Part shown: positions 24,547 through 40,146 of the stretch, piece by piece
Numbering within the stretch: position 1 is the stretch's first letter
Layout of the letters: each line of letters opens with the position of its first letter
Source of the DNA: Pararcticibacter amylolyticus
GTDB taxonomy: Bacteria; Bacteroidota; Bacteroidia; Sphingobacteriales; Sphingobacteriaceae
NCBI RefSeq assembly: GCF_003130405.1
Contig: NZ_QEAS01000001.1
Span: 443,793-485,719, forward strand
Reading direction: 5' to 3'
DNA length: 41,927 nucleotides
The notes under the pieces: generated by a model
Told to the model about the DNA's origin: nothing
Seen by the model: the letters and a program-made list of their open reading frames with translations, nothing else
The model's database searches: none
Made by a program: the position numbers and the translations under genes

Positions 24547-24590
24547 GAATATTGAATGCGTAGCCTGGCTGGTTCAGGTTGCGGTACAGA

Positions 24591-24647
24591 GATACAAAAC
24601 GGAAAGAGGCCGTCATTTAATGTGATGGCCTCTTTCTGTTTTGTATC
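24591..24647. terminator. bidirectional terminator after the zinc-ribbon gene
   Basis: A long hairpin with a 10-bp outer arm GATACAAAAC (24591-24600) matched by GTTTTGTATC (24638-24647), and an inner GC-rich GAAAGAGGCC with GGCCTCTTTC. On both strands the A/T-rich outer arm supplies a T run after the GC core. It lies between converging genes and ends one base before the stop of the radical SAM gene. Confidence 0.9.
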
Positions 24648-25718
24648 TTAAAAAAGCTTTTCCTGCCTGCCTGCTGCCGGAACAAAATGACGGAGCTCTA
24701 AAGGAGGCAGGCTGCGGCCTTTAAGAAACCTGTTGACGGAGATCCTGAACAGCTGATGTATACTTTCAGCAACTTTACCATCACCCCTCATCCTGTTTCC
24801 CCAGCGACTGTCATTAAGCTTTCCATCATGGCATGAAGCTATCAGGTTTAATACTTTTTCCGCCCGGTCAGGATATGCTTTATGTATCCAGTCGGTAAAG
24901 ATCTCTCCTATTGCACCATTTAACCGGATCAACGTAAAAATAGCCCCCATAGCCCCTTCGTTTGCCGCTGCCTGGATCAGGGCAGGTATTTCGTCACTGT
25001 TAAGCCCGGGAATGACCGGCCCCATCATCACCCTTACCGGGATGTTCCCTGAAGCTAGTTTGTTTATAACCATCAGCTTGCTTTTAGCAGTTACCGTTCT
25101 TGGTTCCAGCTTCTGCCGGAGACTTTCGTTGAGCGATGTAATGGTTACATTCACATGAACCAACTGGAGTTTTGAGAGTTCAGTCAGAATATCGATATCC
25201 CTTAGTATCAGGTTATTTTTACTGATAATGCTGACCGGGTGCTTATATTTCAGGAAGACCTCCAGCAATGATCTTGTTATTTTAAGTTTTCTTTCGAGGG
25301 GTTGATAACAGTCTGTATTACCCGATAACATGATCGGCTCCGGCTTGTATCCTGGCTTGTTGAAGAATTTTTCGAGAAGCTCAGCAGCATTCCTTTTTAC
25401 TATGATCTTTCTCTCAAAATCCAGTCCCGCACTGAAGCCCCAGTATTCATGCGAATTCCTGGCATAGCAATACAAACAGCCGTGCTCACAACCCCGGTAC
25501 GGATTGATGGAATGTGAAAAGGCAAGATCCGGGCTGTTTGAAATACTTACAATCGATTTTGGGAACTCTTCTATGACCTGGGTACTGGTGTTCTCATACA
25601 GTATTTCATCGATCCCCTCTATATGATCAGTTACATATTTATTTTTAAGGAACTTGTTATGCGTGTTCACCTGCGCTCCTCTTCCCTTAAAGTAATCGTC
25701 GTTATTTTCAAAAGGCAT
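24648..25718 (-). CDS. PA0069 family radical SAM protein
   Basis: A 356-residue radical SAM protein, matching the PA0069/SplB-related group. The [4Fe-4S]/SAM motif is CEHGCLYC, with cysteines 77, 81 and 84. Segments such as SINPYRGCEHGCLYC, LSGNTDCYQPLE, KNNLILRDIDIL, and MGPVIPGLNSDEIP follow the family. Its substrate is unknown. I chose the ATG at 25718 (MPFENNDDYF), because the nine extra codons upstream are not family-like. It is divergent from the DUF3072 gene. Confidence 0.93.
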   Translation of the reverse strand: MPFENNDDYFKGRGAQVNTHNKFLKNKYVTDHIEGIDEILYENTSTQVIEEFPKSIVSISNSPDLAFSHSINPYRGCEHGCLYCYARNSHEYWGFSAGLDFERKIIVKRNAAELLEKFFNKPGYKPEPIMLSGNTDCYQPLERKLKITRSLLEVFLKYKHPVSIISKNNLILRDIDILTELSKLQLVHVNVTITSLNESLRQKLEPRTVTAKSKLMVINKLASGNIPVRVMMGPVIPGLNSDEIPALIQAAANEGAMGAIFTLIRLNGAIGEIFTDWIHKAYPDRAEKVLNLIASCHDGKLNDSRWGNRMRGDGKVAESIHQLFRISVNRFLKGRSLPPLELRHFVPAAGRQEKLF

Positions 25719-33775: not shown

Positions 33776-36700
33776 ATGGGCAAAAGCACAGCAGCAAAGA
33801 CAGTGAAGGGGGCCGGCAGCGGACTGCGGTTCCAGCGTTATTTCTCGAAGGAGGGAGTGAACGTTTATGACCTTTTTACATACGAGAAGCGCTCATCGGT
33901 CATCCGGAATCCAGCGGGTGATGCAGTTTTTGAAATGAAGGATGTCGAAGTTCCGGCTTCATGGAGCCAGGTCGCTACAGATATCCTTGCGCAAAAGTAT
34001 TTCAGAAAAGCGGGAGTGCCGCAACCTGATGGCACAACCGGATCTGAAAAAAGCATAAAGCAGGTTGCCCACCGGATGGCCGACTGCTGGAGACAATGGG
34101 GACAACGCTACGGGTATTTTGCTACAAAGGAAGACGCAGATATTTTTTATGATGAATTAGTTTATACGATTGTCGGTCAGCTTGCTGCACCTAATTCACC
34201 TCAATGGTTTAATACCGGTTTACATACAGCATACGGAATTACAGGAAAGCCGCAGGGACATTATTTTGTGGATCCTGAGACAGAAGAACTAAAGAAGTCA
34301 ACTTCGGCTTATGAGCGTCCTCAGCCTCATGCCTGTTTCATCCTGTCGGTTAATGACGACCTGGTAAACGAAGGAGGTATTATGGACCTCTGGGTACGTG
34401 AAGCCAGGATCTTTAAATACGGATCAGGAGTAGGAACAAACTTCTCTTCGATCCGCGGAGAAAACGAAAGACTTTCGGGAGGCGGTTATTCTTCCGGCCT
34501 CATGTCCTTCCTTAAAATAGGAGACCGTGCTGCCGGCGCCATTAAGTCTGGCGGAACAACCCGTCGCGCTGCGAAAATGGTCTGTCTTGACCTCGATCAT
34601 CCGGAAATTGAAAATTTCGTTAACTGGAAAGTTGAAGAAGAAAGAAAAGTTGCAGCGCTGATCGCTGCGGGTTATTCATCTGACTACGAAGGAGAAGCCT
34701 ACCGCACCGTAGCTGGTCAGAATTCAAATAACTCTGTTCGTATCCCTAACGCTTTCTTCCGGGCACTGGAAGAAGGAAAAACATGGGATTTAAAAGCCCG
34801 TACTGACAGTAAGATCATGAAGTCGATCTCTGCTGAAAAACTCTGGCAGGATATCGCGTTTGCCGCATGGGCTTGCGCTGACCCCGGGGTACAGTACGAC
34901 ACTACCATCAATGAATGGCATACATGTCCTGAAGGGGGGCGGATCAATGCATCCAACCCTTGTTCAGAATATATGTTCCTGGATAACACTGCATGTAATC
35001 TTGCCTCTATCAACCTGGCTCACTTTTTCAATCCCGATACCTTTATTTTTGATGTAAAGGGATTTGAACATGCCTGCCGTGTGTGGACAGTAGTTCTGGA
35101 GATCTCCGTGCTGATGGCTCAATTCCCATCAAAAGAAGTAGCCCAGTTATCCTATGACTACCGCACTCTCGGACTCGGATATGCTAATCTCGGCTCTATG
35201 CTGATGGTTGCCGGTATCCCTTACGACAGTGAAAAGGCAAGAGCCATCGGCGGAGCTATTACAGCTGTTATGACGGGTACTGCTTATGCTACCTCAGCCG
35301 AGATGGCAAGGGAACTGGGAGCATTCAAACGTTACGAAGACAATCGTGAGCACATGCTCCGGGTAATGCGGAACCATCGCTTTGCTGCATATAACTCAAC
35401 CGGGAACTACGAAGGACTTGAAATAGCGCCTCCGGGAATTGATCCGAAATATTGCCCGGATTATCTTCTTTCTGCCGCCTGCAACGCATGGGATAAGGCA
35501 GTAGACTTTGGAGAAAAATATGGATACCGCAATGCTCAGACTACAGTAATTGCGCCAACCGGAACTATCGGCCTGGTGATGGACTGTGATACTACAGGTA
35601 TAGAGCCTGATTTTGCATTGGTCAAATTTAAGAAGCTTTCAGGTGGCGGTTACTTCAAGATCATCAACCAGGCGGTACCTGCTGCATTGAAGAACCTTGG
35701 ATACCAGGAGCATGAGATCGAAACGATCGTCAATTACGCAAAAGGTACTGCTACTTTAAAAGGAGCACCGCATATTAATTTCGATACGCTGTTAGCAAAA
35801 GGTTTTAAACAGGCAGAAATTGAAAAGCTCGATAAAGCAGTGATTTCAGCTTTTGAAATTGGATTTGTGTTTAACCAGTGGACCCTCGGAGAAGATTGTC
35901 TCAAGCGCCTTGGATTCAAACCGGAGAAATACAATTCACCTGAATTTAACCTGTTAAGGGCTCTTGGTTTCAGCCGTCAGCAGATTGCTGAAGCAAATGA
36001 GTATGTCTGCGGAACGATGACCATTGAAGGCGCTCCTTATTTGAAGGAAGCCCACTACCCTATTTTTGATTGTGCCAATAAATGTGGTTCTAAAGGACAA
36101 CGCTATATCCACGCTCACGGGCATATCAAGATGATGGCAGCTGCTCAGCCGTTCCTTTCAGGAGCGATCTCCAAGACCATTAATCTTCCTAATGAAGCAA
36201 CTGTAGAAGAAATAAAGGATTGTTATGAACTGTCATGGAAGCTTGCTCTGAAAGCAAATGCTCTTTACCGCGACGGCTGTAAATTATCCCAGCCTCTTTC
36301 TACCAAAGCTTCTAATAACGACGAAGAATCACTGGATAGCGTAGAAGAAGTTCTTGGTGAAGCTGCAAATGTAAAACTAAGCGATCTTACTCCTGAGCAG
36401 GTGCTGGAAGCAGCCCGTGCTATTATAGAGAAATCTACAGATACTACATTCAAGCGTCAGCTTTCTTCGGTAGTACAAAGGAAGGTGCTTCCGGGCAAGC
36501 GCCGCGGCTTTACACAAAAAGCTGCCGTTGGTGGCCAGACCATTTATGTTCGTACCGGTGAATACGAAGACGGAACTTTAGGAGAGATCTTCGTCGATAT
36601 GCATAAGGAAGGAGCAACATTCCGTTCTCTGATGAACTGCTTTGCAATTGCAGTTTCCATTGGCCTGCAATATGGTGTTCCGCTGGAAGAATTTGTTGAT

Positions 36701-37090
36701 AAATTTGTGTTTACACGGTTCGAGCCATCGGGTATGGTAGCCGGGCATGACAATATCAAGAGTGCGACTTCCATCATCGATTATATCTTCCGCTTACTGG
36801 GTTATGATTATCTCGACCGCTCTGATCTTGTTCACGTGGTAACAGAGGGGAATGCAGTTCTGGGTAATCCGCAGCTGGAAGACGAGGATGAAAATCCTTA
36901 TGAAAATTCTTTCGCAACCGAAGCTCCCACTGAGAAAGTTGCTTCAGATAAGGTATATAAGCCAGTTCTTGATATTTCAGGAGGTGCTCAGTCTGACGCT
37001 CCTGCGTGTACAAATTGTGGTCATATCATGGTTCGCTCTGGTACATGTTATAAGTGTCTGAACTGTGGTACACAGGGAGGATGCTCTTAA
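33776..37090 (+). CDS. nrdJ: adenosylcobalamin-dependent ribonucleotide reductase
   Basis: An 1104-residue class II ribonucleotide reductase that makes deoxynucleotides with a cobalamin-derived thiyl radical, in the cytoplasm and without oxygen. Radical Cys396 and Glu398 lie in NPCSEY; Cys187 (HACFILS) and Cys407 ([11 protein letters not shown]) form the expected redox pair, with the 11-residue spacing of class II enzymes. [11 protein letters not shown] lies near the substrate site. The C terminus has a four-cysteine zinc-like segment (CTNCGH and CYKCLNCG) and a final Gly-Gly-Cys-Ser tail with a redox cysteine. It is the long form with an extra C-terminal domain (about 860-1104). No cobalamin riboswitch precedes it. 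A terminator follows. Confidence 0.96.
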
Positions 37091-37137
37091 GGAGTGGAAC
37101 GTAAAGTGTTAAAAGTTTAAAGTAAATAAATAGTGAG

Positions 37138-37167
37138 AGCCCGGGTCGGAATGATCCGGGCTTTTTT
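37138..37167 (+). terminator. terminator after nrdJ
   Basis: A 10-bp stem AGCCCGGGTC/GATCCGGGCT (one G-U) with a GGAAT loop, followed by TTTTTT. It starts 48 bp after the nrdJ stop. Confidence 0.9.
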
Positions 37168-37244
37168 GCTTTAGGGAGTGGATGAATAACAATTACCTCA
37201 TAAGGCAAATAGCTATTCCGTGATAAAACAGTTCCAGCTCTTTT

Positions 37245-37402
37245 CCGGGACAGTTCCGGGACAACAGGCGGGAGGCTACGTGTTTTCTGCGTGTCTTCCG
37301 CGAGTCGTGCTCGTGTCGGCCTCGGGTTTGAGTCGCAGCCGACTCGCAGAAGACACGTAAAAAAGTCGCAGACCACTGCGAATCATCCCGATACTGTCCC
37401 GG
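37245..37402. repeat. nested inverted repeats (nrdJ-receptor gap, left block)
   Basis: An outer perfect pair CCGGGACAGT (37245-37254) / ACTGTCCCGG (37393-37402) encloses a strong hairpin: CGTGTCTTCCGCGAGTCG (37290-37307) pairs with 37340-37357 in 17 of 18 positions, around a 32-base loop. A near-copy of the arm (ACGTGTTTTCTGCG) lies next to it, so either can pair with the right arm. The stretch is GC-rich against AT-rich surroundings. No coding frame is credible. Confidence 0.8.
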
Positions 37403-37459
37403 TATTGTCAGGGATTGGTCTTCAGATTACTTTGGCATGTCCTGATATCCGGGTTGTCT

Positions 37460-37594
37460 CCTGATTGGCTTCGGATCTGCAACGCTTTCCCTACGCTTTC
37501 GGAACGCTTTCCCTACGCTTTCCGTTCGGGAATTGTCGAAGCAAAAGCGTAGGGAAAGCGTTGCAGTAGCGTTACAGATCAGACGCCAATCAGG
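37460..37594. repeat. 11-bp phased repeat within a long hairpin
   Basis: The 8-mer ACGCTTTC occurs four times at exactly 11-bp steps (starts 37482, 37493, 37504, 37515), forming two 20-bp direct copies (37481-37500, 37503-37522). The complement lies at 37543-37550 and 37554-37561, again 11 bp apart, so 37479-37499 pairs perfectly with 37544-37564 over 21 bp. Outer arms GATCTG/CAGATC (37474/37575) and CCTGATTGGC/GCCAATCAGG (37460/37585) extend the hairpin. It lies between two converging genes. Family and function unknown to me. Confidence 0.85.
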
Positions 37595-37704
37595 CGAATG
37601 CCGGGGAGCAAATTTAAAAAGCTATACAAGAGCCAAGCCTGACATGCGCAATTTTATTGCCTTTTTCTTTTCATTTATTGCTTTTACTCAAAATGCGCAA
37701 CGGG

Positions 37705-40146
37705 TTATTTTTTAATTCTGTTTGCCTCAGATTCAAGTCCGGTAGAGCGCTGTCTGCTTGCCTTTATCTCATTGCTTCCGAAGCGGTAGGATAAGCTCAG
37801 ACGCACCACCTGTGTTTCACGTTTCTGACTCAAAGAGTAAGAAAGGCCGGGATAGGCGCTGGATATTTTTTGGGTCCTTGTGTTAAAGACATCATTCAGC
37901 GCGAGCTTCACATTGAGCTTTTTGTTGTAAAGAGACTGGCTTAATCCCATGTCGATGCCATATTGGGGTTCTATTTTGATTGTCCCGTAGATCAGAGACG
38001 ACTGGTAATCGCCGTTCAGCTCAAGCGAAGTAGTCTTTCCAAGTTTTATATTCTGACTCGAATAGATCTGAAATGCAGTTTTCCCATTGTCTATTTCCTG
38101 GCCATTCAGGTTGGGAGTCTTAAATCCGAGGTAAAAGATGTTTATATTATTATTACTGCTCCACCATTTTGTAAATGTAAAAGGCGCACTGACAGTAGCG
38201 CTGTAAGCGTTTTGCTTAGCCAGATTCTGATTGGTTTGATATAATGCTCCCTTTTGCGGATTAGGCAGCAGTACCTCCGTGATCAGATCATTGGTAATAT
38301 TGTAGCCAAAGGAGACAGTATATGCTTTTTTGTAAGTGTACGAAAGCTCAAATGCATTGGTATACTCAGGTTTAAGGAAAGGATTTCCCTGGTTGTAAGT
38401 GTATTTGTCGAGATAATATTCAAAAGGGTTCAATGCATCGTAACTGGGCCTGTTGATTCTCCTGCTATAAGAAAGTCCTATTGTGTGATTATCGGTAAAA
38501 TTATGGCTAATCACACCGCTCGGAAACAGGTTGAAATAGTGACGGTTCACAACAGAGTCGGTGGTAACGAGGTTTCCTTTAGAGTTTGTCTGTTCTCCCC
38601 GTAAACCAGCCTGAAGAGTGGTTTTCTTCCATTCTATCCGGTAGTTTATGTAAGCCGCATTGATATTTTCGTCATAGATGAAATGATTGCTGCGGCGAGG
38701 GTCGTTCTGCCACGCTTCCTCCAGAAAGCGGTTAAACTGGAAGTTATTATCAGTCTTAACCATACTGCTCTTAAGCCCGGTTTCCAGTTTCATCCGCTTC
38801 GAAAGCGGATAGGTATAGTCTGCTTTTACTGAGTAAATATGAATTTTTGAAGGTGTATGATTCCGGAGGAGTTCCGGATTTCCATTCGTAGCTGAAGGAT
38901 TGTAGTAATAGATATTATCGTATAAGGTGTTATCATTCCCATAATAGTTCGAGTAATCCAGATCCACCTGCAGTTCCTGTCCTGAAGTATCCAGCACCGA
39001 CTTGAGATTTACATTGTAGCTGAAGTTGCGGTATTTATAGTTGCCTTCATTCAATGCCACTACAGAAGAATCGTTCGCACCGCGGGTAGCTCCGATCAAG
39101 GTATTGTTGCCATACAGCTCACCCCCGTTATTAATGTAACCGGTCATTAATGCTCCTATCGTATTGTTCTTATCAATGAAATAGTCGGCACCCAGCTTAA
39201 AATTATTGTCCTGATTTTTTCTGTCAGAATTACCAAATTGGTAGAAGTAGGTGTTTTTACCGGCATCAGAATTGATCCGGTCGATTTTCATATCCTGGAA
39301 GCGCTTATTATTGGAATAATTATAGCTGCCGAAAATATTAACGGTTTTGTTTCGGTTGTTAAAAGAGATTCCGGCGTTGGATTTATATCTTTTGCCGTAC
39401 CCCCCGCCTGCATTTAACGTCCCGTTGGTTCCGTAACTTTTGTTTTTCTTCAGCTTAATATTGATGATGCCCGCTTTCCCCGCTGCTTCATAACGGGCAG
39501 AAGGATTATTGATGATTTCAATGGATTCGATCTCATTGCTCTGCATGTTGCGCAGAAAGTTAGCCAGGTCGGCATTGCTCATATAGGTCTGCTTCCCGTC
39601 TACCATGATCATCACGCCCTGTTGTCCTTTCAGCGCGATGTTGTCATCTTTATCTACACTGACGCCAGGTGCCTTCTGAAGAACTTCGAGAGCGGTAGAG
39701 CCAACAGAGACACTGCTATTCTCAACATTCACGATCAGTTTGTCAGCTTTGCGTTCAATAAAAGGCTTCTGAGCTGTGATACTCACTTCTTTAAGTTCGC
39801 GGCTTTCAGGCTGTAACTGTATCGGCTCCACGTGGAACTGAGGGTTTTGAGACGACAGGCTGAACGATTTACCAGTAAACTTTTTAAATCCGACGGAGCT
39901 TACCGATACAAAATATTCAGACTCTTTCAATCCCCTGAAGTTAAAATGTCCTTTATCGTTTGTAAACATTGTTTTAACAACGCTGGAGTCTGCTTTCGTC
40001 AGAACAGAGACCGTAGCATAATCAAGAGGCTTTTTACCGGCATCTGTTACGGTTCCTGATACGCTCAGTTCCTGTGCTTTAAGCGGAAGATGGAACAGAA
40101 AATTGATGGTCAGTGCAAATAAGAGCTTAAATAATGTTGGTTTCAT
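37705..40146 (-). CDS. outer-membrane beta-barrel receptor
   Basis: An 813-residue outer-membrane protein, TonB-dependent-receptor-like. A signal peptide (about 1-24, cut near LKAQ) is followed by a CarboxypepD_reg-like domain (about 26-110, VSGTVTDAGKKPLDYATVSVL), a plug (about 120-235 with VLQKAPGVSVDKD and MIMVDGKQTYMSNADLANFLRNM), and a C-terminal barrel of the OMP_b-brl_3 type (about 400-800). The final strand ends with the RLSLSYRFG pattern. The substrate is unknown. It is on its own, with no SusD partner. The last codons abut the repeat-rich gap. Confidence 0.92.
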   Translation of the reverse strand: MKPTLFKLLFALTINFLFHLPLKAQELSVSGTVTDAGKKPLDYATVSVLTKADSSVVKTMFTNDKGHFNFRGLKESEYFVSVSSVGFKKFTGKSFSLSSQNPQFHVEPIQLQPESRELKEVSITAQKPFIERKADKLIVNVENSSVSVGSTALEVLQKAPGVSVDKDDNIALKGQQGVMIMVDGKQTYMSNADLANFLRNMQSNEIESIEIINNPSARYEAAGKAGIINIKLKKNKSYGTNGTLNAGGGYGKRYKSNAGISFNNRNKTVNIFGSYNYSNNKRFQDMKIDRINSDAGKNTYFYQFGNSDRKNQDNNFKLGADYFIDKNNTIGALMTGYINNGGELYGNNTLIGATRGANDSSVVALNEGNYKYRNFSYNVNLKSVLDTSGQELQVDLDYSNYYGNDNTLYDNIYYYNPSATNGNPELLRNHTPSKIHIYSVKADYTYPLSKRMKLETGLKSSMVKTDNNFQFNRFLEEAWQNDPRRSNHFIYDENINAAYINYRIEWKKTTLQAGLRGEQTNSKGNLVTTDSVVNRHYFNLFPSGVISHNFTDNHTIGLSYSRRINRPSYDALNPFEYYLDKYTYNQGNPFLKPEYTNAFELSYTYKKAYTVSFGYNITNDLITEVLLPNPQKGALYQTNQNLAKQNAYSATVSAPFTFTKWWSSNNNINIFYLGFKTPNLNGQEIDNGKTAFQIYSSQNIKLGKTTSLELNGDYQSSLIYGTIKIEPQYGIDMGLSQSLYNKKLNVKLALNDVFNTRTQKISSAYPGLSYSLSQKRETQVVRLSLSYRFGSNEIKASRQRSTGLESEANRIKK
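39825..39838. promoter_or_regulatory. parS-like site with one mismatch, inside the receptor gene
   Basis: GCTCCACGTGGAAC, 13 of 14 bases of the perfect parS-like form at 1125 and 1149; the inner TCCACGTGGA is intact. It lies in coding sequence, so it may be chance. See the finding. Confidence 0.3.

Follow-up and report, generated by a model that had tools for sequence, protein, structure and literature searches.

What holds a short motif at exact 11-bp steps along an intergenic stretch of DNA, and sets it again in mirror image on the far side of a dyad? We met this arrangement in the genome of Pararcticibacter amylolyticus, within a stretch of 41,927 nucleotides (the window: the whole of the DNA analysed at this locus). 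The upstream gene, which we take to be nrdJ (33776–37090, + strand) and whose relatives we compared, would encode an adenosylcobalamin-type ribonucleotide reductase. It is followed by an intrinsic terminator-like hairpin with a T-run, recognised by eye (37139–37167, +), then by an 11-bp-phased hairpin that we call element B (37243–37410, +), and then by element A (37450–37605, +), an imperfect palindrome that is 156 bp long, is made of 11-bp units and contains the array. A convergent gene, presumably for an outer-membrane beta-barrel protein, closes the locus (37705–40146, −). Terminator-like hairpins similar to that at 37139–37167 also stand after the nrdJ genes of G005 and G003/MAG bin_267; nrdJ was found in three of the six genomes of the genus.

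The array was first described, in an earlier note on this DNA, as lying at 37479–37564; the array is real, but these positions enclose just the core of the palindrome. In the left arm core (37482–37522, +), ACGCTTTC occurs four times in exact 11-bp steps, with starts at 37482, 37493, 37504 and 37515, as that note had it. The right arm core (37543–37572, +) holds complementary units in phase. Two further exact complements had been counted there; the unit at 37554 is exact, but the other, at 37543 (AAAAGCGT), carries one mismatch, and a third at 37565 (AGTAGCGT) is indeed degenerate. Pairing over 21 bp without mismatch also holds, 37479–37499 being the reverse complement of 37544–37564; the minimum-energy fold of element A favours a different register, with 19 unbroken pairs. 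Within the window ACGCTTTC is found seven times against 1.39 expected, a number attained in none of 100 shuffles. A protein-coding origin of the array, already thought unlikely, can be set aside because the region around the core has few open reading frames of at least 60 aa, all of them short, and 11 is no multiple of three.

Folding had been proposed as a check, and as RNA the segment 37445–37605 reached −86.8 kcal/mol (z −9.3); the z-score for element B was −7.2. In a sliding scan, the best 77-bp stretch matched itself at lag 11 with a score of 0.64 in A and 0.65 in B, values that none of 2000 dinucleotide shuffles reached in either case; in both elements the 11-bp repetition extends over almost all of the palindrome. 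The two elements are nevertheless unrelated in sequence, with no blastn match between them at E ≤ 1. A known structured RNA was rejected: all 14 Rfam matches in 36900–38300 fell under the gathering score, the best being mir-4520 with 27.2 bits against 90. Elsewhere in the window, an almost perfect inverted repeat of 26 bp, closed by a loop of 7 nt (24590–24648), is without 11-bp phase. At 1114–1173 the palindrome GTTCCACGTGGAAC occurs twice in exact form, at a distance of 24 bp and directly ahead of an open reading frame starting MFKKYDII; a third such palindrome, with one mismatch, lies at 39825. We take GTTCCACGTGGAAC to resemble the core of the ParB parS consensus and the reading frame to be MnmG-like; the pair perhaps indicates that the chromosome origin is near.

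Element A belongs to a dispersed family of palindromic, non-coding repeats. Copies occupy nine near-full and two contig-cut places in its own 6.31-Mb genome, with a degenerate relative at L047; compared with the window copy, five copies are 91–96% alike (subgroup 1) and three 76–78% (subgroup 2). The earlier note had reasoned that a unique and unconserved array with no transcript would be a local duplication, and had suggested a search in this and related genomes. The search showed that the element is not unique but multi-copy in the own genome, though it was found in none of the five congeners (E ≤ 0.001) and in none of 300 other genomes sampled from the family, these five among them (E ≤ 1e-4, with the best two candidates per genome scored). 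Element B has seven places in the own genome. At four places (the window, the start of C74, C106 and C95) A and B stand no more than 3 kb apart, where our arithmetic gives about 0.07 expected.

Several copies have neighbourhoods of their own. In two exopolysaccharide-like loci, A copies lie beside genes that are presumably XRE-type regulators (L035:7663–8070 and L037:6731–7117), alike at 97 of 129 positions. Three B copies at contig ends (L038, L042 and L044) are followed by a common sequence, GTCTTATCCTAGAATGGCTATACACC, so that B there adjoins a longer repeat cut by the contig ends. One A copy sits at the extreme end of a 6.8-kb contig with long unread stretches and doubtful origin (L040, G000:C104).

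We then searched the six genus genomes with three hairpins taken from stretches chosen by position, and this revealed families C, D and E. Family C has 14 places in the own genome and five in G005, with a diverged member in G001 (L226); family D has 13 in G005 and five in G003, where two may belong to a single locus; family E has four in G005 and a relative in G003. The own genome has one more 11-bp-phased hairpin (L057:12541–12691), which shows just a weak match of 18 bases to B and possibly represents a sixth family. At least five families of the genus, without a common unit sequence, follow one design: about 110–200 bp of degenerate 11-bp units around a central dyad, in intergenic DNA. Both sides of the stem consist of degenerate tandem repeats. 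When copies were re-oriented, the single arms of A–D scored 0.47–0.63 at lag 11 and 0.36–0.60 at lag 22, with all other lags from 3 to 30 at or below 0.36, and in C and in D the left-arm units and the reverse-complemented right-arm units share one consensus per family. This suggests that a common rhythm rather than a common sequence is what is kept, and a phase common to at least five families favours there being a reason for it.

How conspicuous the 11-bp lag is depends on where one looks. Across the 207 kb of loci selected for carrying A or B, 17 regions were recovered at lag 11 and 16 at lag 22, with no other lag above four. In 20 position-chosen stretches of the own genome (400 kb), three regions scored at least 0.5 at lag 11, other lags giving up to four; two of the three were judged new hairpins (L057 and L059) and one is A+T-rich. 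In 400 kb of G005 there were four lag-11 regions, three judged hairpins, against 27 at lag 7. By count alone, therefore, 11 is not singled out in position-chosen stretches of either genome. No lag-11 region at 0.5 appeared in 100 kb of G002, the one in 51 kb of G004 is A+T-rich, and the sole one in 17 stretches (340 kb) of ten other genera is not an evident hairpin. The 80 nrdJ loci of relatives (1.64 Mb) gave eight lag-11 regions against 54 at lag 7. Two of the eight were judged 11-bp arrays: L099, which folds poorly, and L088, whose 700 bases 3′ of nrdJ are identical to those of G003 and whose locus holds no match to the outer-membrane protein gene at E ≤ 1e-20. Hairpins in these 80 loci tend to another phase: of the 23 long enough to measure, 13 showed a clear lag, which in 10 was 7 or 14 bp. 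Degenerate 7-bp-phased arrays are common in other Sphingobacteriaceae (for example L119:2911–3003, L142:21540–21610, L147:1800–1888 and L108:2624–2800), and 15 of 37 lag-7 arrays in the nrdJ loci score as hairpins, compared with 3 of 37 random stretches.

The reading that we prefer, with a probability of roughly 0.42, is that these are dispersed palindromic families of mirrored 11-bp units, which spread non-autonomously near older hairpins and are read by a protein as duplex DNA, one unit per helical turn. Element A and its kin would then probably constitute a new variety of dispersed palindromic repeat. The earlier note had left the choice between a protein that meets repeated sites on one helix face and an RNA hairpin with register freedom, and is partly borne out: the 11-bp phase common to at least five families speaks for a reason behind that phase, and the RNA hairpin is weakened by observations considered below.

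The dispersal of A might instead be that of a selfish miniature palindromic repeat (MITE- or REP-like) with no host role, whose 11-bp step was required by its transposase or copying enzyme. The close likeness of subgroup 1 copies at unrelated sites, the absence of A from congeners and family sample and its clustering with B are as expected for such a repeat, but other features are not. The Y1/RAYT transposase domain (PF01797), the one type of transposase searched for, gave no match in the own genome, which is 97.7% complete, and was present in 5 of 14 control genomes. Copies end at differing points and similarity declines outward; no fixed, sharp ends of the MITE kind were seen and no target-site duplication was recognised by eye, the empty-site comparison (panB, rplM and three D sites) being rough. 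Carriage by phages or plasmids was rejected, because the exact patterns of A, C and D are absent from viral contigs and A has no blastn match in plasmids or phages at E ≤ 1e-5. A purely selfish origin thus seems to us possible but doubtful.

REPs measure 20–40 bp, with stems of 5–13 bp and a GTAG or CGTC tag, and are dispersed, largely intergenic, palindromic and often clustered (PMC3733652). In the latter respects they resemble A–E, but these span 110–200 bp and have an 11-bp phase. A REP/RAYT palindrome was rejected for element A, which has 156 bp and 19–21 unbroken core pairs and lies in a genome where no Y1_Tnp was found. GTAG, the one tag sought and in family A alone, occurs within 30 bp to the left of the arm in five of nine A copies, the window copy not among them.

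Neighbour orientation is unselective. Among the A–D copies with both neighbours (35 of 41 examined), 15 lie between tandem, 13 between divergent and seven between convergent genes, compared with 110, 50 and 25 for background gaps (800 kb, gap length 150 bp or more), all called with a simple ORF caller. A preference for sites between convergent genes, which had been thought worth checking, was not seen (7 of 35 copies). Six open reading frames cross copies; they are short (90–167 aa) and look spurious.

Comparison of the genes flanking the elements gave three orthologous gaps with one family here and another elsewhere. The gap after nrdJ holds A and B here, E in G005 and an E-like hairpin in G003; that before rplM holds A or B here and D in G005; that before bamD holds A or B here and D in G003. 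Against these three family swaps, chance would give about 0.3, on a reckoning from some 16 A/B gaps here, 22 C/D/E gaps in G005, five D gaps in G003 and a scaled figure of about 1450 gaps for each genome; the chance figure would be higher if the elements favour long gaps. The same family can also hold an orthologous position where the flanking genes are 64–68% alike (L172/L179 for D, L211/L218 for C). For two D sites of G005 the corresponding gap in another genome (L055, L090) is without lag-11 array or hairpin, with no exact junction readable; for a third, the gap in G000 is partly unread (L052).

One could see in the swaps a genus-wide system of certain chromosomal sites that keep mirrored, helically phased 11-bp units while their sequence is replaced wholesale between species, the specificity of a putative binding protein probably changing with it: a DNA element defined by phase and indifferent to sequence. 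We consider this unlikely. The sharing of sites has its limits: at rplM, where the species differ in gene order, three congeners (G001, G002 and G004) are without such an array, and none of the five congeners has a lag-11 array at the panB site, the place of a B copy here, though gene order differs there too.

Comparison of units within and between copies bears on how the arrays arose. They might be a neutral by-product, tandem repeats grown by slippage, mirrored by template switching and later mutated; the many degenerate 7-bp arrays of the relatives, with 15 of 37 mirrored, agree with this, as does a slight excess likeness of units to their own neighbours in the outer bins of C (0.48–0.50, against 0.40–0.42 for other copies). 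In B and D, by contrast, a unit is no closer to the neighbouring unit in its own copy than to that in other copies, out to the outer units, and a single period has been kept in five families. Slippage should also have altered unit number, which is constant from copy to copy in the A and D cores: the D core aligns without gaps and that of A varies just by a 1-bp loop difference, which disturbed the comparison of right-arm units in A. Copies of D are 100% identical at the centre and 33–38% at the edges, while the 11-bp phase persists about seven units out. We therefore regard a neutral origin as distinctly improbable.

These comparisons cover nine of the eleven A places (the near-full ones) and eight of the 14 own-genome C places. 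Early alignments and mismatch counts of C and D mix strands; the unit, pairing, orientation and per-arm lag tests use re-oriented copies and leave out L173, which is without the exact centre motif, and the other D copies of G003. L185 was left out of the first version of the per-arm lag test, and L008, at a contig end, of the orientation and folding tests.

If selection acted on the hairpin, the two arms of one copy should fit each other better than the arms of different copies. In ungapped pair counts the fit within copies was worse for D (z −3.2) and for own-genome C (z −2.7), and for A and B overall it was no better; the positives among the sub-tests were the outer arm of A at 0.009 and the inner arm of C at 0.022. 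When each left arm was folded with the right arm of another copy, the fraction of shuffles at least as stable as the real arrangement was 0.036 for A, 0.18 for B, 0.82 for C and 0.98 for D. The arms of A thus go together slightly better than redealt ones, which would fit some pairing constraint, whereas those of C and D overall pair no better within a copy. Counts of G.T and A.C mismatches, from copies in mixed orientation, were similar (D 42/51, C 51/34, A 36/32, B 28/43). Compensatory change is not consistently seen, and unit phase seems better kept than pairing. Because the ungapped and folding results are mixed, we claim neither selection for pairing nor selection against perfect palindromes.

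A structural RNA or transcript-end hairpin (a terminator, mRNA stabiliser or RNase III target, with 11 bp as one turn of A-form RNA) accords with the very stable folds and the slightly better pairing of the A arms, but we judge it improbable, since divergent genes flank 13 of the 35 copies, the arms of C and D overall fit no better within a copy than when redealt, G.T and A.C mismatches are about equally frequent, and nrdJ already has its own terminator-like hairpin ahead of the elements. What argues instead for recognition of duplex DNA over an RNA fold is that the families differ in sequence and not in phase or dyad, that arms follow their consensus without special fit to each other, and that divergent gaps are used.

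On the preferred reading, then, the elements would spread as non-autonomous mobile repeats and settle near older hairpins, and a putative protein, which could be either the mobiliser or a host protein, would contact one 11-bp unit per helical turn from both sides of the dyad. The 11-bp step would be kept owing to this reading of the duplex, and pairing into a hairpin or cruciform would follow incidentally from the mirrored layout, or be of use in mobilisation alone. Several points count against it. Not all sites are shared, lag 11 does not stand out by count in position-chosen stretches, the copies have faded ends without a recognised target duplication, and the A arms pair slightly better within a copy. 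A turn of B-DNA is 10.5 bp, so that sites spaced 11.0 bp apart would drift round the helix across seven units. Furthermore, the 7-bp-phased hairpins of relatives are unexplained by a helical-turn reason, and argue against a purely helical-turn cause.

Some known repeats share part of this design. The heptanucleotide STRRs of cyanobacteria are short tandem repeats. TAACTGA repeats occur in Beggiatoaceae, Cyanobacteria and five Bacteroidetes, with long arrays in some Bacteroidetes; they are, like A–E, short, intergenic and patchily distributed, but as 7-base direct repeats of one motif they are unlike mirrored 11-base arrays (PMC4679880). The nearest known design is the P6b stem of the Nostoc trnL (tRNA-Leu UAA) group I intron. 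There, unrelated Class I and Class II motifs of 7-base degenerate repeats form a similar stem structure and Class II has repeatedly been replaced by Class I at one site (PMC4476775). That stem is confined to a single intron locus and varies in length by repeat units (PMC4476775), whereas the families here are 11-base, dispersed and intergenic, with no change of unit number in the A and D cores. Plasmid centromeres offer another comparison: a 22-bp fragment of R1 parC, the partner of ParR, contains iterons 1 and 2, which are 11-bp repeats (PMC4949242), and the ribbon-helix-helix protein omega sits on heptads in parS of pSM19035 (PMC5016525). Such repeats are likewise bound along the duplex (PMC4949242, PMC5016525), but at one or a few plasmid sites and not at scattered chromosomal copies of several families. 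Ribbon-helix-helix proteins, known on both 11-bp iterons and heptads, may by analogy bear on the contrast between 11- and 7-bp hairpins. Among the titles and abstracts of the matches listed, we found no printed 11-bp counterpart.

Dispersed palindromic repeats are usually defined by their sequence. Here it is the sequence that varies, and the 11-bp period and dyad that are kept, so that the class would escape ordinary repeat searches. If the families are merely selfish, they are still a type of repeat that has spread in a genome in which no Y1 transposase was found. If the phase is selected, the arrays indicate that Bacteroidota have an undescribed protein that binds or mobilises DNA, and would provide a natural test of the use of helical phasing.
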